42,023 nt of DNA from a virus. Position 1 is the stretch's first letter. Each line of letters opens with the position of its first letter. Made by a program: the position numbers and the translations under genes. The stretch is from the IMG/VR virus record IMGVR_UViG_3300010392_000249, positions 1 through 42,023 of that record; one strand, written 5' to 3'. Below the pieces are notes generated by a model that had not been told where the DNA came from, searched no databases, and worked only from the letters and a program-made list of their open reading frames with translations. Shown here piece by piece: positions 4,605 to 36,469 of this stretch.

Positions 4605-5344
4605 TGGCTACTAAAAAAACTGTTCTTGAGTATGTAAAAAACTGTCTGTCAGTTATGGACAGTGATGAAGTTGACAGTATTACTGACACAGTTGAATCTC
4701 AACAGGTAGCCAATCTGTTGCAAGAGTGTTTCTTTGAGTTTATTAACCGAGAAGAGTGGACTTGGTTACAACAACCTGTAACTCTTGACGGTACAATCAC
4801 TGGCCCTACTCGTCCTACCCAAGTAGGGATTGATGACAACATCAAAAAGATTATGTACGTGGCTTACGATGTGTCGTCCACTGGCTTATTTGAGTACCGT
4901 GAGTTGCACTATCTGTCGCCTGTTGACTTCGTAAAGAAGTTCAGCCGTGGTGGAGATGACAAAGTTGCTGTAACTGTAGGCAGTTTTAAGTTCTACATTG
5001 ATACTTCTCGACAGCCTGAATACTGGACTAGCTTTGACGATGAGAACATTGTAGTGGATGCGTACAAAGCATCTGTTGAAACTTATGTTGACAGCGACAA
5101 GTTTTCAGTGTATGGTGTAGTTATCCCCTCTTTCACAGTGGATGATGACCATGTGCCTGATGTCCCGGTTGCAGTTGTACCGATGCTTCAGCACACCCTC
5201 AATGCAGCAGCAATGCTGTACTTTAAACAAACATCTTCACCTGTTGATGAACAGCGTATCGTCCGTCAACTAGCACAACTAAGACGTGAAGAAAGTAAAA
5301 CAAGGAACCGAGATTATGCCCCGAAGAAGTACGGTAGGAAGTAA
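4604..5344 (+). CDS. Tail adaptor / tail tubular protein A (T7 gp11-like)
   Basis: 246 residues. In T7 this protein forms the ring between portal and nozzle. Features of the family visible here: an N-terminal helical part with VNECFFEFINREEW-like sequence (here QECFFEFINREEWTWL, about residues 41-56), a beta-rich centre, and a C-terminal helical region with many Gln/Arg residues ending in KKYGRK. Length and order (adaptor, small gene, nozzle) match the T7-like tail module. The stop overlaps the start region of the next small gene. Confidence 0.82.
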   Translation: MATKKTVLEYVKNCLSVMDSDEVDSITDTVESQQVANLLQECFFEFINREEWTWLQQPVTLDGTITGPTRPTQVGIDDNIKKIMYVAYDVSSTGLFEYRELHYLSPVDFVKKFSRGGDDKVAVTVGSFKFYIDTSRQPEYWTSFDDENIVVDAYKASVETYVDSDKFSVYGVVIPSFTVDDDHVPDVPVAVVPMLQHTLNAAAMLYFKQTSSPVDEQRIVRQLAQLRREESKTRNRDYAPKKYGRK

Positions 5345-19191: not shown

Positions 19192-19956
19192 CATTTATGT
19201 TCACCACGTTTCGCTACTCCGTGGCAGGTATGTTTGAAAGAATCCACTGTGCAAATCTATGCAGCTCTTCATTACTTGCGTGACATTTCATTGCGTTAGC
19301 CAGTTGACTTATAACTTGAATGTTACCTTTTACGTAACCTTTTGTGTTGTCAATCCTGTCTAACGATGGGGAGTTTCTGTACGCCCCTGACCTTCCGCAA
19401 TTCATGTTAAGAGGTATTCCTAGTACCGGACAGACATCAGGAATAACAATGTCTGAAACCTCTATGTTAAAATCTCTACCAAGTTCTTTAGATCTTTGCT
19501 TGGCCCTCTGGTGCATCTTCCACTCAGGCGTTAGAGACTTAACACGGCTGCTGTTACACGGTTTACACAAGGTCATCTTGCTTGTCTTTTCAAATAGAGA
19601 TCCGCACTTTGTACACTCTCTATGTGTATCACTAACAAGATACCCTTCTCTGTTTCTTTCTAACATTTTTAACACCTTTGAATTATGTAATACCCGCAGT
19701 ATAACATAATTAATTTACGGTGTAAACCTTCTGCAAGTTTCCATGCAGATCAGACTATATCATCACCCAACATAGGTTGGGGCAGGGCACTTCCACTCGC
19801 TTGAGTGTACGGGATTCATCTACTAACGTGAGTCGGTATTCCCTAGTCGTTGAACCTTCCGATCCCTCGCGGGAAAGGCTTGGCTGCTGATTACCTTATG
19901 CTTACGCACTTAGGCTTCCCAGACAATTCACCCTGTTTTACTTCTGCTAACTATTA
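19192..19956 (-). ncRNA. Group I self-splicing intron in nrdJ
   Basis: A 765-nt insert between Cys338 and Asn339 codons. P1 is seen directly: the 5' exon end TTCTGT pairs with GCAGAA in the intron, ending in the required U-G wobble at the splice site. P10 is possible between intron AGUU and the first exon-2 bases AACU. The last intron base is G. Conserved core elements in order: Q-like AATCAGCAGCCAAG (19892-19879), R-like GTTCAACGACTAGG (19855-19842) and S-like GATGATATAGTCTGA (19764-19750). P7 can form between CGACTA and TAGTC. The HNH gene lies 3' of the core. This is the group IA-type pattern. Confidence 0.9.
19214..19666 (-). CDS. Intron-encoded HNH homing endonuclease
   Basis: 150 residues from the ATG at 19666, with an AAAGG site 7-8 bases upstream (a GTG nine bases earlier is possible). 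Two zinc-type Cys pairs, C18/C21 and C34/C37, precede a C-terminal nuclease motif with CPVLGIPL and SPSLDRIDNTKGYVKGNIQV, the HNH variant common in phage homing enzymes. It lies wholly within the group I intron, so its likely role is intron homing into intronless nrdJ copies. The codon use (AT-rich, AGA, TCT) differs from the flanking exons, as expected for a mobile gene. Confidence 0.85.
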   Translation of the reverse strand: MLERNREGYLVSDTHRECTKCGSLFEKTSKMTLCKPCNSSRVKSLTPEWKMHQRAKQRSKELGRDFNIEVSDIVIPDVCPVLGIPLNMNCGRSGAYRNSPSLDRIDNTKGYVKGNIQVISQLANAMKCHASNEELHRFAQWILSNIPATE

Positions 19957-20970
19957 ACAGAATTGATGTGGTCGTAGAATGATCTCTGAACACGGGTTAG
20001 TACCGAACTCATACGTAGCATCCCGGCGACCATTCTTGGCTGCTGCCTTCTGGCTTGCAACACGAGAGAAGATACCTCGCTCACCAGAGTACGACTGGTA
20101 CAAACTTGTCCACTCTTGCATGAACGTAGACAAGGAAGGCTTGGACTCGTACACTGCACTGTTGTTAGCCAACGCACGTTGTCCGTTTTCTTGCCACCAC
20201 TGACCAGACTTGCACACACGGATGTCGTCATCCCCAAGATCAGACAGAGAGATCAACGCTGAACGGCGTACACCACCCACAACCACGATGTCTGCAATCT
20301 TGCACACCAAGTCGTGACATTCAATCGGTGTCAGCTTACGGCCAGCAGCACCTTTCAACAGATCAACAGAGAATTGAAACAGATCAACCAAAGGTTTAGG
20401 GCCACTGGCACGACCACCAAACGTCTTCAGTCGGGCACCAGATGGGCGTACCTTGGACACATCCCACGAAGGGATCTTACCGGCCCACAACAAGGCCAAC
20501 AACTCACGGAAGGCAGAGGCCCAACCGATCTTGCTGTCACCCACTACGATGGTTGTGTCAGTCTTGTGAAAGCTATCTGCTACAACGGGCAGCTTGTTGG
20601 TGTACTTGGATTCAACAGAGAACCCAACACCTGTACCACACATCAAGATGTACAAGATCTCGTCAAAGTCACGGACAGATTCTACTGTGGTGTAAGAACA
20701 GTTGAATGCAGCTACCTCGTCACGATCAAGAGCCTTGCCTGCTGTCATCAACGTGCGCATGGAAGGCATAACTTCAAGGTTCAGGATGGCTTCACGCAGT
20801 TCTTGTAACGTAGAAGGGTTTACTTTGGTTGGGAAACGTCCCTTCCAGAAGTTGATAAGGCGATCCACTGTTTCTTCCCAAGTCTCACGGCGACCAAGGG
20901 TGTCGTTGAATCGGGAGTAGCGGGACAGATGAATGTACTTCTGAAAATCGGTAGGTAGTTTGTGTGTCAT
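19957..20970 (-). CDS. nrdJ: Class II (B12-dependent) ribonucleotide reductase, exon 1
   Basis: Codes for residues 1-338 of a monomeric adenosylcobalamin-dependent ribonucleoside-triphosphate reductase, which makes dNTPs for phage replication. Visible family features: EVMPSMRTLMTAG, the substrate-site segment AAFNCSYTTVE, LMCGTGVGFSVE, and the active-site loop GTNPCSEIIL with N325, C327 and E329. The exon ends at C338 (TGT, base 19957) and the frame stops at once in the intron. Joined to exon 2 the protein is 635 residues. The gene is flanked by terminators on both sides and has a GATAACNGTTATC palindrome just before its ATG. Confidence 0.92.
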
Positions 20971-22448: not shown

Positions 22449-23117
22449 TTAGTTGATCTCGTCAACAAGACCAGCTTCAAGGGCACCTTCAGCATCAAAC
22501 CAGATGTCTCGGCGTTGTTTGAAGAAGTCATCCCAGATCTTTCGATCCTTTCCTGTACGCTGGACAAGGATTTTGATGATGGTTTCTTCAAATCGTTTGA
22601 CCAGTTCAACTGTATCTTCCACTTCAAACGCACTGCCTACTGCACCAAAGGCTGCTCGGTGTAGCATGATGAAAGATGTTGGGCCGATCTCTCGTTTGTC
22701 AGCAGCTTGCAACAAAATAGCTGCCATTGAACAAGCGTTACCACGTACACGGATAGTCAAGTGGTGTCCGTCACGGCGTAGCTTGGTAAGCTCATCGAAC
22801 AGAGCAAACCCTTCTACAATCTCACCACCGGGACTGTTCAACTCAAGAGTCAAAGGTTGTCCGGGATTCATGCGTGACCACCTGCGAAACGTAGCAGTGT
22901 AGTTACAACGAGATACATCGGTTACTGGTTCGTCAAAGACAAGGTAGTTATTCTTGAAGTCAACAGACCCACCGAAGTCGTAGTTGTACTTTTCCTTCTT
23001 CAACTCAAGCTGGCTCAACTCGTGTTCAACTACGTTGAGTGCAGCCTCGGTGTTCTCGGTCAGTACCTTGGCTTGGTTCAGTTCGATCTCTGACTTTTCT
23101 TTTAGTGACAGTGGCAT
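22449..23117 (-). CDS. ClpP-like serine protease
   Basis: 222 residues. An N-terminal coiled coil (1-45) precedes a ClpP/crotonase-type protease domain. The oxyanion/strand segment NSPGGEIVEG (94-103), the nucleophile S130 in NACSMAA, H153 in FIMLHRA and D204 in RRDIWF-DAEGALEAGLVDEI form the expected Ser-His-Asp triad. In phages such enzymes are usually prohead proteases within the head operon; here the gene sits on the opposite strand between the exonuclease and endonuclease I. A role in host or phage regulatory protein turnover is possible but unproved. The AGGAG site is 7 bases before the ATG. Confidence 0.85.
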   Translation of the reverse strand: MPLSLKEKSEIELNQAKVLTENTEAALNVVEHELSQLELKKEKYNYDFGGSVDFKNNYLVFDEPVTDVSRCNYTATFRRWSRMNPGQPLTLELNSPGGEIVEGFALFDELTKLRRDGHHLTIRVRGNACSMAAILLQAADKREIGPTSFIMLHRAAFGAVGSAFEVEDTVELVKRFEETIIKILVQRTGKDRKIWDDFFKQRRDIWFDAEGALEAGLVDEIN

Positions 23118-25750: not shown

Positions 25751-27580
25751 TCAGTGGCACTCAGCCCAGTTGTTACCAATCATGTACTCACCAGACAAAG
25801 GACAGTTGACTTTGAGATACCTACCTGCCCATGCACAAGCCTGTTGGAACGTAAGCCCTACAGTCTCACCGCACTCAGGTGTTGTCTCAGCTTGCACCTC
25901 GTCGTGGAATGTACCCAACAACTTGAACGGTACCTTATTCTTGACGAGAACCTGTGCCCACTTGACCAACGCTACCTTGACTGCAATAGAACCTGCTGAT
26001 TGTAACAACGAGTTCAACGCTGCATGTTCGTGACGGACGTAGATCTTACGACCATCCAAACCTTTGAGCCAACCTTTCTTTGAAGCTGTCTGTACTCTTT
26101 CAATAAGTGTAGCGTACTTAGGCAAACCTGTCAAGAACTTACGGCGTAACCGTTTACCCGTGTTGGCATCACCATCAATGATAGAGCCTAGCTTCTCATC
26201 ACCTGCGCCGTAGAGTAGGGCGTAGATAAATGTCTTCGCTACATCACGGCCAGATGTCTCCTTACCACCGAACACGTACTGCTTCTTGGGTTCCAGACCA
26301 ATCAGCTTACAGTTGATAGAGTGAACGTCTGTCTCATCAGAGGACTTTCCGTTGACAATGGCATCGGTGTACGCTGCATCTCCCATGTAGTGAGCAAGCA
26401 TACGGAGTTCGAGTCCAGAGGCATCGGCTCCAACTTGCACTCTACCGTGAGGTACGGTAAACAAGGCCCTGAGTTCTTTACCATACGCAGAAGTGACTCT
26501 AGGTACGTTGACCACTGTACGGTGACGCATTCGTGCAGTTGGTGTAGCGTTTGGAAATGCTCCGGCCTCAATCCTCCCATCAGTTCTAACTTTACCAATC
26601 CAGCCTCCTACTTGTGAACGGCGAGTGACCATAACAAATCGGTCAACAAGAGTTTGTCCTGTCTCACCCATCTTACCCACAATGGAATCTTCCGTGAACC
26701 GTGGGTTGCCTTTCTCGGTGTACTCGGTAGGTTTCCATCCGTACTTCATCAACAGTTCGATCATCTGCTGTCGGCTACCAAGGTCAGGGTACACTACCTC
26801 AACAGGAAAGAACGGGCCACCAATGATGTCAGGTTGATAACCGTTATCATCACACCACTTCTGTGCAACAAGGCTTGGCTTGCCTGTAGCAGTGAACGGT
26901 ACGATAGGTGTCTTCCTGTCACCCTTCTTGCAGATCTTTGGTGTGATCAGCTTTGACAACTTCTCGTCTGCTTGAACGATTAAGTCGGACATCTTCTTGA
27001 CAAACTGTTGAGCAGCAGGTACATCGAACACCCAACCACAACGCTCTTGCCAAGCAATGACACGAGCAACTTGGTGTTCAAGAGCAATGGACTGTTGCCA
27101 GTCGTGATCTCCTGCTTCACGCCACAGCATGTCGAAGATACACGCAAGGGCTTCACTGTCTTGAATACAATACTCACCCATGTCATCGTTGTACTCTTCC
27201 CAACCACCGTTGTAATCACCCTTCCACGAGCCAGCTTGTTTGGATAGGTTATCCAACGAGTGACCACCTTCACGTTCAGGACTGAACAAACAAGACAACA
27301 CGAGTGTGTCAATGCACTTGGGTGCAAGGTTTACACCATGTAGCTTTTGGATAACAGGACAGTCAAACCCAAGACCGTTGTGAGCACACACACGCTTTGC
27401 TTTGGTAAGGATGTCAACAGCTTTAGCAACACCATCAGTGCCAACGTAAAGCTGTGTTGGCCCACGGCCTACCTTGATAGAAACACAGTGAATGGTGTGT
27501 GTCTCGTACAAGAATCCGTTTGTTTCCAAGTCAAAGAAGTGTATGTCACTTCCGAACCTGAAGTCGTTTATGTTTTGCAT
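25751..27580 (-). CDS. DNA polymerase, family A (T7 gp5-like)
   Basis: 609 residues from the ATG at 27580, overlapping the end of the primase-helicase gene region. The 3'-5' exonuclease is intact: D17/E19 in FFDLET, HNGLGFD with D73, and YCIQDSEA with D141. The polymerase has motif A GADASGLELRML (D386), motif B RDVAKTFIYALLYGAG (K449, Y453) and motif C TFHDEVQ (H559-D560). It is shorter than T7 gp5 (704 aa); a thioredoxin-binding insertion was not evident. Replicates the phage genome with the primase-helicase. It contains one GATAACNGTTATC copy within coding sequence (26836). Confidence 0.95.
   Translation of the reverse strand: MQNINDFRFGSDIHFFDLETNGFLYETHTIHCVSIKVGRGPTQLYVGTDGVAKAVDILTKAKRVCAHNGLGFDCPVIQKLHGVNLAPKCIDTLVLSCLFSPEREGGHSLDNLSKQAGSWKGDYNGGWEEYNDDMGEYCIQDSEALACIFDMLWREAGDHDWQQSIALEHQVARVIAWQERCGWVFDVPAAQQFVKKMSDLIVQADEKLSKLITPKICKKGDRKTPIVPFTATGKPSLVAQKWCDDNGYQPDIIGGPFFPVEVVYPDLGSRQQMIELLMKYGWKPTEYTEKGNPRFTEDSIVGKMGETGQTLVDRFVMVTRRSQVGGWIGKVRTDGRIEAGAFPNATPTARMRHRTVVNVPRVTSAYGKELRALFTVPHGRVQVGADASGLELRMLAHYMGDAAYTDAIVNGKSSDETDVHSINCKLIGLEPKKQYVFGGKETSGRDVAKTFIYALLYGAGDEKLGSIIDGDANTGKRLRRKFLTGLPKYATLIERVQTASKKGWLKGLDGRKIYVRHEHAALNSLLQSAGSIAVKVALVKWAQVLVKNKVPFKLLGTFHDEVQAETTPECGETVGLTFQQACAWAGRYLKVNCPLSGEYMIGNNWAECH
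26836..26848. repeat. Palindrome GATAACCGTTATC inside DNA polymerase
   Basis: Perfect copy inside coding sequence (encodes part of DDNGYQP). One of three copies lying in coding frames. Confidence 0.8.
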
Positions 27581-27582
27581 TA

Positions 27583-29205
27583 TCAAAGTTCTCCGTCATC
27601 TGGGTCTTCCGGTAGTTCAGCAGGGACAAGAGACATGGACTGGCGATCCCAGTACAGCGCATCAGCCATACCTGTATCACCTGTCTCACGACATTTGAGT
27701 ACGTGCAGTTGAGACACGTTCTTGATGTACTCGTCAGGGTGTTGCTTGTTACGGCTAACCCCAATGATGTCAAACGCAATCTGCTTCAGTGAACCACTGC
27801 CTTTCAGGTCGTCTTCACTAGGTACTGCACCTTGCTCAAACCCCTTGCCACCGGAGGGTGCCTTGCGTAAGTGAGAGATGATACACAAGTGTGCCTTGGT
27901 CTTCTCTACGAACTCAAGGAACTCGTTCATCATCCTGTCTTGATCTGCAAGGCCACCTCCATCACCAAATTCTGACACAGCAAGTGTGATGTGGTCAAGG
28001 AAAATAACTTGAGCACCCATCGAATAGTGCAAATATTCGAACTTACCAATCAGAGATTGTCCACGAGTGAACTGATTCCTGTGGTCAACAGTGAAGATAC
28101 GTTGTGTACCATACGTCTCTTCGTACACCTGTCGCTTGTACTCTGGTGTCATCTGTGACAAAGGCATACGTCCGTGGAACTGCATCAACCCACGCCATGT
28201 CTTCTCTGGTGACTCTTCCAACTCAACCTCACCGATCACGTTGTCCGTGTTTGTGAGTACGTGTTGTTTCAACCGGCGAATGTAGCTGGTCTTACCAACA
28301 GATGTACCGGCACACCACAGGCTGATCTCACCTTCACGCATACCTTCCATCCGTTCGTTCATCAACGTCCACTCAGGTGGGTAAGGGATAAACTTGGGCT
28401 TGGTGTAGTTCTGCATACGAAGCCACACTTCTTCCCCTGTAATTATCCCGTCAGGGCGATATGCCTCTGCCTTAAATAGCCCGTTGAGGAAACAATCAGC
28501 ACCACCTTTCTCACGCAACAGATCGTTAGGGTCTTTGGCATCACTGTTCCACGACATCAGGAATGCTTTCTTACTGCCTAACGCACACGCAAACTCTTTG
28601 GCTGCTTGTTGCCCTGCTGCATCTTTGTCGAAACAGATCACCACCTTCTCAAACGACTTGAAGTATTCGATGTTACGTTTCCAACCCTCAGTACCAAGGG
28701 TAGCAACAACACGGTACGCTTTGCCTTTGACAGCAAGCATCTGTGTCACGGCCATGCAATCCTCTGCACCTTCCACAACAATCAAGAACTTACCACCTGT
28801 ACCTGCAACTTGGGAACCAAACGGAAGAGCACCACCAGTGTCAGGAGTACGCTTGATCTGCTTTGGTAACTCACGTACTTGATACCCTAACAACCCACCC
28901 TTCTGGTTGTACAGTGGAAAGTAATACTTCATCTGTTGACCAGTCTCTTGACTGTACTCAACACGAACACCATATTGCTTACTAACTTCTTCAGAGATAC
29001 CTCTGTCAGTCAGTGCAGCAACAGGTAGTTTAGATATATCATCCAACCCAATTCTCCCTGTTAATTCTTCACGTTGATAACTGTTACCATCACCACGAGT
29101 AGAAGCAGTACAGACAAAGCAATAGGTGGAATTATTTTCGTACACTGCATTGCCATCACTACTACCACACTTAGGACAGGATGTGTGTTTGATGTATCTA
29201 CCCAT
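27583..29205 (-). CDS. DNA primase-helicase (T7 gp4-like)
   Basis: 540 residues. Domains in order: zinc-binding primase domain with C10, C13, C29, C32; TOPRIM primase core with E145 (VVEGAEDC) and D193/D195 (CFDKDAAG); linker; RecA-type DnaB-family helicase with Walker A AGTSVGKTS (299-307) and a Walker B-like VIFLDHI. This is the full two-function T7 type, unwinding DNA and making primers for the polymerase, whose start lies 3 bases after the stop. It is preceded by an AT-rich leader and a strong sigma-70 promoter. Confidence 0.95.
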   Translation of the reverse strand: MGRYIKHTSCPKCGSSDGNAVYENNSTYCFVCTASTRGDGNSYQREELTGRIGLDDISKLPVAALTDRGISEEVSKQYGVRVEYSQETGQQMKYYFPLYNQKGGLLGYQVRELPKQIKRTPDTGGALPFGSQVAGTGGKFLIVVEGAEDCMAVTQMLAVKGKAYRVVATLGTEGWKRNIEYFKSFEKVVICFDKDAAGQQAAKEFACALGSKKAFLMSWNSDAKDPNDLLREKGGADCFLNGLFKAEAYRPDGIITGEEVWLRMQNYTKPKFIPYPPEWTLMNERMEGMREGEISLWCAGTSVGKTSYIRRLKQHVLTNTDNVIGEVELEESPEKTWRGLMQFHGRMPLSQMTPEYKRQVYEETYGTQRIFTVDHRNQFTRGQSLIGKFEYLHYSMGAQVIFLDHITLAVSEFGDGGGLADQDRMMNEFLEFVEKTKAHLCIISHLRKAPSGGKGFEQGAVPSEDDLKGSGSLKQIAFDIIGVSRNKQHPDEYIKNVSQLHVLKCRETGDTGMADALYWDRQSMSLVPAELPEDPDDGEL

Positions 29206-34755: not shown

Positions 34756-34768
34756 GATAACCGTTATC
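34756..34768. repeat. Palindrome GATAACCGTTATC between the first two leftward genes
   Basis: Perfect copy; supplies the TGA stop of the first leftward gene. It is the copy closest to the control region. Confidence 0.86.
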
Positions 34769-35195
34769 AAACCTCAGCCTGTTCTGCGTGGTTCATTTCA
34801 ACCAACATGAGCCAAGCCTTTTCCATCAAGGTTTCCAAGGTTTTCATCTGGCCTTCTTCTTGAGCCTTCTCGATCAAGTTTTCCAATTGCTTAGCAAAGT
34901 CGGTTTGCTTGTCTGTTTTCTTCTCAGATACCGCCACAATCCATGAACCATCGGCCTTCTTCACTGTCATTTTTGGCAAATCCATCGACTTGCAAACCCG
35001 TTGCATAGCCATGCGAAGACCGGCCAATCGTGCCCGTGATTGTTCTTTGTCGAATCGTGGGTTCTCGTCGATCATTCGTGCCGCTTCAGTGATAGTGGCT
35101 TGATCGTTAGTCACAAAGCATTGGCGTACCAATTCTTGAACTTTGTTACCTTTGTTTGCCTGTTCCAGAATTGCTGTGTAGAGTGCGTTTGCCAT
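34767..35195 (-). CDS. First gene of the leftward unit, helical hypothetical protein
   Basis: 142 residues, Gln/Lys/Glu-rich and helical. Contains RMIDENPRFDKEQSRARLAG, then a short beta section (LPKMTVKKADGSWIVAVSE) and a coiled-coil C-terminus. A GGAGAT site precedes the ATG. It is the gene nearest the sigma-54-like promoters, so it would be the first made early in infection. Function not recognised; candidates for such genes include inhibitors of host proteins. Confidence 0.68.
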   Translation of the reverse strand: MANALYTAILEQANKGNKVQELVRQCFVTNDQATITEAARMIDENPRFDKEQSRARLAGLRMAMQRVCKSMDLPKMTVKKADGSWIVAVSEKKTDKQTDFAKQLENLIEKAQEEGQMKTLETLMEKAWLMLVEMNHAEQAEV

Positions 35196-35308
35196 GATGT
35201 AATCTCCAATGTGTTAGTCAAAAATTGCTGAACCGTTGTTCGCTGTCCAGGAATTGAATTATCCGGATTTTTTAACCGAGTGCAACAAAAAGATTTTTAT
35301 CGGAAACG

Positions 35309-35341
35309 GGAAACCGATAGGCAAAACCTATTGGGGTTTCC
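35309..35341. other. Hairpin in the early (leftward) leader
   Basis: GGAAA-CCGATAGG, loop CAAAA, CCTATTGG, 2-base bulge, TTTCC: about 13 bp of stem with one G-U pair. It lies between the sigma-54-type promoters and the first leftward gene, so it would form in the early mRNA. On the plus strand it is followed by TTCTTT. The part CCGATA can instead pair with TATCGG at 35299-35304, giving an alternative hairpin. Confidence 0.5.
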
Positions 35342-35379
35342 TTCTTTATATCTTGAAACGCACGCGTCACGCGCACACA

Positions 35380-35394
35380 CGCGCAATATGCGCG
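35380..35394. repeat. Inverted repeat in an alternating purine-pyrimidine tract
   Basis: CGCGCA-ATA-TGCGCG within a 30-base alternating CG/CA tract (about 35368-35397). This overlaps the expected start point of the nearest sigma-54-type promoter and could adopt Z-DNA or a cruciform under supercoiling. Confidence 0.5.
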
Positions 35395-35397
35395 CGT

Positions 35398-35413
35398 AGC
35401 AAAAACCGTGCCA
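35398..35413 (-). promoter_or_regulatory. Sigma-54-type promoter, proximal copy
   Basis: On the minus strand TGGCACG-GTTT-TTGCT, with the invariant GG and GC at the correct distance. Nearest of three such elements to the leftward genes; expected start near 35386. Confidence 0.7.
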
Positions 35414-35425
35414 GAAAATTGAAAA

Positions 35426-35445
35426 CACTGTACGTTTATACAGTG
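35426..35445. repeat. Inverted repeat CACTGTA-N6-TACAGTG
   Basis: Perfect 7-bp arms with a 6-base centre (35426-35432 and 35439-35445), lying 13 bases upstream of the proximal sigma-54-type promoter. Operator-like. Confidence 0.65.
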
Positions 35446-35575
35446 GATCTCACGATTTTATTTTTTAATACCTGAGTGACCCCTAGGGCCAAAAACGCAG
35501 CACAGAGCGTTTTGACGCGTTTTAGGACGCTGTACAAAAACACAGTAGAATTGGGTTGGCATGGTTTGTGCTATA

Positions 35576-35591
35576 GGCAAGAATCGTGCCA
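35576..35591 (-). promoter_or_regulatory. Sigma-54-type promoter, middle copy
   Basis: On the minus strand TGGCACG-ATTC-TTGCC. Only the last base departs from the usual TTGCA/T. Confidence 0.7.
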
Positions 35592-35652
35592 TGCGAGCAC
35601 GTCAGTGGTGCCAGCAACCTGCTAGGATTGGATGTTAACAACTGTTAACGAA

Positions 35653-35668
35653 AGCAAGTATCGTGCCA
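35653..35668 (-). promoter_or_regulatory. Sigma-54-type promoter, distal copy
   Basis: On the minus strand TGGCACG-ATAC-TTGCT, preceded by CT: a full match to the sigma-54 consensus YTGGCACG-N4-TTGCW. Confidence 0.75.
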
Positions 35669-35730
35669 AGAGTGGCTTGTTTACAAGTGTTAACAAGGTT
35701 GGTGTTGTCTGTCCCCATTTACCTATCAAA

Positions 35731-35768
35731 TCAATCTGACACGATGCAGTGTCACATTCAATCTGACA
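35731..35768. promoter_or_regulatory. Possible activator-binding region (inverted and direct repeats)
   Basis: TGACAC-GATGCA-GTGTCA (35737-35754) is a perfect inverted repeat, overlapped and followed by two direct copies of TCAATCTGACA (35731-35741, 35758-35768). It lies 70-115 bases upstream of the distal sigma-54-type promoter, where enhancer sites for sigma-54 activators usually lie. Confidence 0.5.
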
Positions 35769-35932
35769 ACAAGTATTGTCTGATAACTGTTACCTATTGG
35801 ACAAATAGTTTTTCATTTCTGTACACGGGGAAAGATTTGTGGTAGGGGATAAGGGGGGATATGGGGGTGGGTTCTGTTCTGTTCTGACCCAAGAAAAATA
35901 TCTCACCAATTTTTTCTTCCAAACCTCTTTGA

Positions 35933-35971
35933 GCATCTTCGATGCGATCGGTACTCAAATTATTTTTGAGT
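35933..35971. repeat. Two inverted repeats just upstream of the rightward promoter
   Basis: GCATC-TTC-GATGC (35933-35945) and ACTCAAA-TTATT-TTTGAGT (35953-35971) end 6 bases before the -35 box at 35978. They may be operators for the late promoter. Confidence 0.55.
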
Positions 35972-35977
35972 TACCTC

Positions 35978-36006
35978 TTGACACATAGGTTCAACTCTGG
36001 TATACT
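35978..36006 (+). promoter_or_regulatory. Sigma-70 promoter of the rightward (late) unit
   Basis: TTGACA (35978-35983), 17-base spacer, TATACT (36001-36006), in noncoding DNA upstream of all rightward genes. The transcript has a leader of about 455 bases. Confidence 0.8.
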
Positions 36007-36312
36007 TAAAGGGAGTGGGAGAGAACGCTTGCTAAATGACGAGACACCTCTTCCCTCTTGTCCGACCTGAACCCCACGGGGATAAACAAGCAGAACAGAT
36101 TTAACAGCTTGTGCGTATTGGATGACAAACAACTCGGAAGTCTTGTAAGGGACATGAGAATTCTGAGAGTAAGTGTCTGAACAAACAGCCACTTCGTACT
36201 TTGTCTGACAAACAGCCAAGGCACCTCAGATGAAAAGTAGTTAGGGTTGATCCTCCTTATTTGAATGGATAGCTTGATACAGGACAATAGATAAAGGTTA
36301 CTTGTGGTACTC

Positions 36313-36338
36313 GTTACTCGGAACTGGTTACTCGGAAC
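36313..36338. repeat. Tandem 12-base repeat in the rightward leader
   Basis: GTTACTCGGAAC at 36313-36324 and again at 36327-36338, two bases apart. Role unknown; possibly an RNA-binding or structural element. Confidence 0.6.
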
Positions 36339-36469
36339 ACGGAGTAGAACAGATAAAGGATAATGGGAGAGTTCATCAAGGAAGCTGACGTGGGGTAATA
36401 ATATCTAAAAATAATAATAATAACATACATTAAAAAAAATAACTTACACACACAAAGAGAGAACACACT

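Follow-up and report, generated by a model that had tools for sequence, protein, structure and literature searches.

The replication genes of the phage studied here are preceded by three tandem copies of a sigma-54-type promoter motif, all on the minus strand and all directed into the leftward gene unit. We consider it likely that these sites, P1, P2 and P3, are tandem sigma-54 (RpoN) promoters of that unit, used by host E-sigma54 together with a host activator, a reading for which there are no transcript or binding data. This promoter identity, first put forward in a sequence-only reading of the window (the whole analysed stretch of 42,023 bases), is now well supported by a sigma-54 matrix, a spacer control, the consensus at unfixed positions, conserved place and orientation, and the lack of machinery of the phage's own. 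Observed were the three sites and their high scores, a position and direction conserved among relatives, and no recognisable phage sigma-54, activator or T7-type polymerase.

Three tandem sites ahead of the leftward unit

The virus record that forms the window bears a direct terminal repeat of 127 bp (a DTR phage). Its terminase has its best relatives in the Zobellviridae, at about 50% identity, and the structural genes follow the terminase. Judged by homologous terminase and gene order alone, without a tree or proteome network, the phage fits this family. The leftward unit begins at 35195 and encodes a primase-helicase, a DNA polymerase A, an exonuclease and a ribonucleotide reductase; it is separated from the rightward unit by a gap at 35196–36469. 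We infer from its replication genes that the leftward unit is an early one. The relevant features are as follows.

25751–27586, minus strand: DNA polymerase family A, leftward unit
27583–29205, minus strand: T7-type primase-helicase, leftward unit
34767–35195, minus strand: first leftward gene, 142 aa, no known function
35399–35413, minus strand: P3, sigma-54-type site TGGCACGGTTTTTGC, exact 15-mer, matrix score 20.6, expected start ~35388
35556–35572, plus strand: weaker sigma-54-like site TTGGCATGGTTTGTGCT on the opposite strand in the same gap, score 15.1, rank 4 in the genome
35577–35591, minus strand: P2, sigma-54-type site TGGCACGATTCTTGC, exact 15-mer, matrix score 17.4, expected start ~35566
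35654–35668, minus strand: P1, sigma-54-type site TGGCACGATACTTGC, exact 15-mer, matrix score 20.6, expected start ~35643
35978–36006, plus strand: sigma-70 promoter of the rightward unit, a good match in the consensus scan, serving as the contrast case

Two further elements were noticed. The minus strand at 19731–19966 matches the group I intron family (Rfam RF00028, E 5.7e-19); this intron borders the ORF of a B12-dependent ribonucleotide reductase (19954–20970) and probably splits it. A ClpP-family protease of the head maturation protease type is encoded within the replication unit at 22449–23117 on the minus strand.

The three 15-mers share the pattern TGGCACG-N4-TTGC, and the expected start of P3 lies ~190 nt ahead of the first leftward gene. 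The sites are exact and lie where the sequence-only reading had placed them, except that its lower bounds were one base too low and are corrected here to 35654, 35577 and 35399. Its estimate of chance occurrence was reproduced: with 11 fixed bases, about 0.02 exact sites are expected, versus three observed. No other site with zero or one mismatch to the pattern exists in the 42,023 bases, and shuffled sequences contained a mean of 0.71 such sites. The window sites have the two elements that define sigma-54 promoters, GG at -24 and GC at -12, at the required distance. They also agree with the extended consensus around both elements, as judged by a matrix derived from 41 E. coli sigma-54 ChIP sites (table of PMC4591121), on which P1–P3 are the three top-scoring positions of the whole genome (20.6, 17.4 and 20.6). 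The E. coli ChIP sites themselves score a median of 16.1 and a maximum of 20.8 on this matrix, which puts the window sites level with strong E. coli promoters, and first-order Markov genomes of equal length yielded a mean of 0.17 sites scoring at least as high as the third-best window site. P2 and P3 match exactly TGGCACnnTTnTTGC, the consensus published for the E. coli RpoN holoenzyme alone (PMC8743547).

The rightward unit has a textbook sigma-70 promoter, with an 11/12 match and a TG ahead of the second hexamer. For the leftward unit, a scan of the minus strand found no sigma-70 promoter above chance, the best candidate being a 9/12 match at 35221–35194 over the start codon; the scan can overlook weak or UP-element promoters. 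Both results bear out what had been read from the sequence, namely that 35196–35977 holds no convincing minus-strand sigma-70 promoter and that such promoters occur elsewhere in the genome. Domain searches of the window found neither a sigma-54 domain (PF04552) nor a sigma-54 activator domain (PF00158), in line with the earlier failure to see an activator gene. A search for the T7-type RNA polymerase domain (PF00940), whose positive control worked, was likewise empty, and with no phage single-subunit RNA polymerase detected the criterion for T7-type promoters is not met. Since no phage sigma-54, activator domain or T7-type RNA polymerase is detectable, we infer that the leftward unit is most likely transcribed by host polymerase.

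A sigma-54 promoter stays silent unless an ATP-driven activator, responding to nitrogen, envelope or other signals, acts on it. Under the sigma-54 promoter reading, host RNA polymerase carrying sigma-54 would occupy P1–P3 as closed complexes once the DNA enters the cell, a host AAA+ enhancer-binding protein would open them, and transcription would then pass through the 142-aa gene to the helicase, polymerase and reductase genes. Polymerase binding, early timing and the need for a host activator are inferences; dependence on the activator, which is untested, follows from sigma-54 biology, and the activator for this phage has not been identified. Besides the missing transcript and binding data, it counts against the sigma-54 reading that the host is unidentified, so that its rpoN is not shown.

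Conservation of the sites in related phages

Relatives of the window phage carry comparable sites at comparable positions. GP100, a phage of Pseudomonas protegens, has TGGCATGGCTATTGC 145 bp ahead of its first annotated gene in a strand-switch gap, and Vibrio phage 1.253.O has TGGCACGATGCTTGC in its strand-switch gap; among the isolate and complete phage records checked, these two carry one strict site (TGGCAYR-N4-TTGC) each. Sites directed away from the terminase were found in a similar gap with one mismatch in Phage GX1 and Pseudomonas phage DMTU_1, in a weaker form in Vibrio phage 1.264.O, and in contigs L048, L057, L058 and L059, the last with two in tandem. The uncultivated ctYwJ313 has two strict sites, not in tandem. 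No strict site was found in ICP2, CW02 or VP41s3. A blastn comparison of two arrays with 50,697 phage records revealed nothing convincing as to isolates with arrays, and the main text of the Tn-seq study of P. protegens CHA0 against GP100 does not mention rpoN.

A second sample comprised 79 loci (763 kb) fetched solely for a helicase related to that of the window, motif presence not being a criterion. The helicase query alignment included helicases from array contigs, and the sample is therefore close to array phages. Eight strict sites were present in five of these loci, and all eight lay upstream of the helicase, on its strand, at -3.2 to -5.4 kb. Control patterns with other spacers, reversed or scrambled, gave at most four sites each in the same loci, and these were scattered. 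The naive probability of eight out of eight is 8e-7 if the sites are independent, an assumption that fails: L264, L273 and L277 are one common sequence, so that only about three of the lineages are independent. The sites of L239 and L291 occupy the strand-switch gap and precede the first rightward gene. The terminase-based sample alone showed only weak enrichment, with 20 upstream sites of zero or one mismatch versus 4–8 in spacer and reversed controls, on both strands.

Strict sites were missing from 26 of the 31 helicase loci having at least 3.2 kb of upstream DNA, and they accordingly mark only a subset of the helicase relatives. The sequence-only reading had named a lack of conservation in related phages as grounds for refutation, and this check did not refute it: GP100, 1.253.O and some helicase loci have sites in the corresponding place and orientation. 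The lack of strict sites in these 26 loci and in several Zobellviridae, including ICP2 and CW02, does weigh against the sigma-54 promoter reading.

Dense arrays and candidate activator sites

Tandem pairs 45–75 bp apart occur in at least 120 viral stretches, versus 11 for a five-base-spacer control in the same scan. The unfixed positions of 401 viral sites agree with the known sigma-54 consensus: a Y precedes TGG in 84%, an R follows the second fixed block letter in 78%, and an A or T follows TTGC in 91%. Among the loci listed, 50 of 120 form a single shared-protein component that includes homologues of the window helicase and polymerase, while the remainder are spread over 50 further components, and in many of these the terminases belong to other families. 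Site spacings peak at 25–29, 36–38 and 46–47 nt, with almost none below 25; we infer that this minimum of ~25 nt is what is expected if every site needs room for a polymerase. It counts against the promoter reading that in other phages some arrays face both directions or away from genes. In L087, L094, L097, L104, L113, L120 and L181 the arrays have a 47-bp period with sites on alternating strands.

Dense triple arrays were likewise found in at least 120 viral stretches, 120 being a lower bound for both scans, versus only 20 in 84,980 prokaryote species genomes. Twelve of these 20 are near-identical tandem repeats, usually within ORFs, seven are MAG contigs with varied sites, and L348 is ambiguous. 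All seven MAGs that hold the array contigs encode sigma-54 (PF04552), binning being weak evidence for a host. Among the contigs, L342 is clearly viral, with phage terminase and portal genes; L345 and L353 encode a primase or helicase of phage type; and single tested proteins of L347, L349, L350 and L355 had no family match. Dense arrays are found in several phage lineages and are nearly absent from bacterial chromosomes. L353 adjoins a tRNA-Pro gene and is for that reason possibly an integrated element. Beside this gene, at L353:5135–5777 on the minus strand, six sigma-54 sites precede a hairpin near 5135 that resembles a terminator; if the element is integrated, it may produce a short RNA from sigma-54 promoters.

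The gap of the window contains several elements near P1–P3.

35426–35445, minus strand: palindrome CACTGTATAAACGTACAGTG followed by TTTTC, located between P2 and P3 and readable as a LexA-like dyad or as a terminator-like hairpin
35597–35611: weak NtrC-like dyad GCAC-N7-GTGC just 5' of P2, with three mismatches to the full NtrC consensus
35634–35649: palindrome GTTAAC-AGTT-GTTAAC, centred ~-76 of P2, on the expected P1 start
35679–35694: palindrome GTTAAC-ACTT-GTAAAC, candidate enhancer or repressor site, centred ~-121 of P2
35845–35867, plus strand: G-rich, quadruplex-like tract, C-rich on the promoter strand, in the strand-switch gap upstream of the sites

No convincing enhancer site of any known activator was found in the window, a point against the sigma-54 promoter reading. 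NtrC was rejected as the activator of the window sites, the best box being too poor at three mismatches to TGCACCA-N3-TGGTGCA, the E. coli NtrC consensus (PMC8743547). The two GTTAAC-N4-GTWAAC palindromes, the only occurrences of GTTWAC-N4-GTWAAC in the window, are better enhancer candidates than this NtrC-like site, but may just as well serve a repressor. The idea that the palindrome is a known host enhancer was rejected, since it is absent 30–60 bp upstream of bacterial sigma-54 sites in the 84,980 species genomes, only that spacing having been searched. A LexA reading of CTGT-N8-ACAG palindromes was also set aside, though not finally excluded: the extended form was not seen in the array regions of relatives, and the copy at 35426–35445 doubles as a terminator-like hairpin.

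Tracts similar to the G-rich one were observed in L057, L058, L059, L239, L273 and L291, and C-rich tracts occur near arrays more often than chance predicts (in 18 of 158 clusters versus 1.5 expected). DnaA-box-like TTATCCACA repeats adjoin the sigma-54 sites on their upstream side in L239, L264, L273, L277 and L291, the last with a variant box only; such repeats occur in 17 of 158 clusters versus 3.7 expected and perhaps mark an origin.

Elsewhere among the viruses, an activator domain was absent from 41 of 43 array contigs, the two exceptions being 223 and 323 kb long. In 101 non-redundant array regions, NtrC boxes numbered three exact and six within one mismatch, as compared to one and five in 396 background stretches. 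An NtrC box followed by a sigma-54 site was found in 36 viral stretches; there was no matched control, and a pattern of similar information content gave 11. One family with terminase genes, including L186, L437, L441 and L454, has one or more perfect TGCACCA-N3-TGGTGCA boxes, along with sigma-54 sites placed head to head at a distance of 3 bp. In a second NtrC-box family of nine, seven loci have a homologue of the window helicase or polymerase. The clearest modules, with perfect NtrC boxes and facing sigma-54 sites upstream of terminase genes, are the following.

L437:806–1113
L441:5565–5798
L454:7234–7463

Tentatively, and as a possibility that we would not yet call probable, dense sigma-54 arrays, some with perfect NtrC boxes, may be a widespread viral module that ties expression to host NtrC and sigma-54 or sequesters them, infection being gated by the nitrogen-stress response or rewiring it.

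The repeated perfect boxes and head-to-head sites of L437, L441 and L454 are also what a decoy would look like, in which the sites serve mainly to tie up E-sigma54, and NtrC too in some phages, on the phage genome and thereby weaken the sigma-54 response of the host. Since E-sigma54 can bind promoters in an inactive state, as reported in PMC4591121, such a site could work without being transcribed. The dense packing down to ~25 nt and the direction of the L353 array, towards the 3' end of opposing ORFs, are in keeping with sequestration. However, both in the window and in all eight cases of the helicase sample the sites point one way, to the replication genes, and in array loci having a helicase the orientation count is 42 versus 16. 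Only three sites per genome would make a poor sponge, and a decoy would leave the leftward unit without a visible promoter. We regard this main rival reading as unlikely, though not excluded.

It is very improbable that some DNA-binding protein of phage or host uses the sites as operators and that they resemble sigma-54 promoters only by accident. All three copies do contain a partial dyad, GGCA-N7-TGC, and the nearby palindromes point to a regulated region, but the dyad does not predict the sigma-54 consensus that the 401 viral sites follow on both flanks, the window sites score like E. coli ChIP sites, and the asymmetric form with its N4 spacing recurs across unrelated phage lineages. We give least credence to chance or relic sites with the unit read from an unrecognised sigma-70-type promoter: a consensus scan may miss such a promoter and some Zobellviridae lack strict sites, but three exact sites far exceed expectation, their location is conserved in distant relatives and tandem sites exceed the spacer control more than 10-fold in viral contigs.

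Comparison with known systems

Phage early genes are usually thought to fire immediately from strong sigma-70-type promoters. Our reading of P1–P3 as sigma-54 promoters suggests instead that a stress or nutrient regulator of the host turns infection on. If this is true, infection by a class of environmental phages is gated by host physiology as soon as transcription begins, which would affect latency, host range and the dependence of lysis on nutrients. An isolated phage, GP100 with its host P. protegens CHA0, allows a direct test of the idea. Sigma-54 promoters are already known; no report of their arrays in phages, nor of tandem phage use for a replication unit, was found in open-licence PMC full texts, a scope that leaves out most subscription journals.

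Members of the Zobellviridae (ICP2, GP100, CW02 and others) resemble the window phage in their ~50% identical terminase and similarly placed strand-switch gap. Some carry a single sigma-54-type site, but three tandem sites, as in the window, occur in none of the checked isolates, and the ICP2 record has annotated sigma-70-like promoters in the gap where the window has sigma-54-type sites. In T4-like cyanophages, NtcA-type promoters make use of a host nutrient regulator with a sigma-70-type polymerase. The idea of a host nutrient regulator is alike in the two cases, whereas sigma-54 needs an ATP-driven activator.

Bacterial sigma-54 promoters, such as those of E. coli hypA, rpoH, pspA and glnA (PMC4591121, PMC8743547), have the same -24 and -12 elements and spacing. 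In contrast to them, the window sites belong to a phage, stand three in tandem before replication genes and have no identified activator site. As at NtrC-activated glnA-type promoters, perfect TGCACCA-N3-TGGTGCA boxes lie beside the sigma-54 sites in a subset of the viral modules; unlike those promoters, the window has only a poor NtrC-like dyad and the viral modules include head-to-head promoter pairs. Dense triple arrays, nearly absent from bacterial genomes, set the viruses apart.
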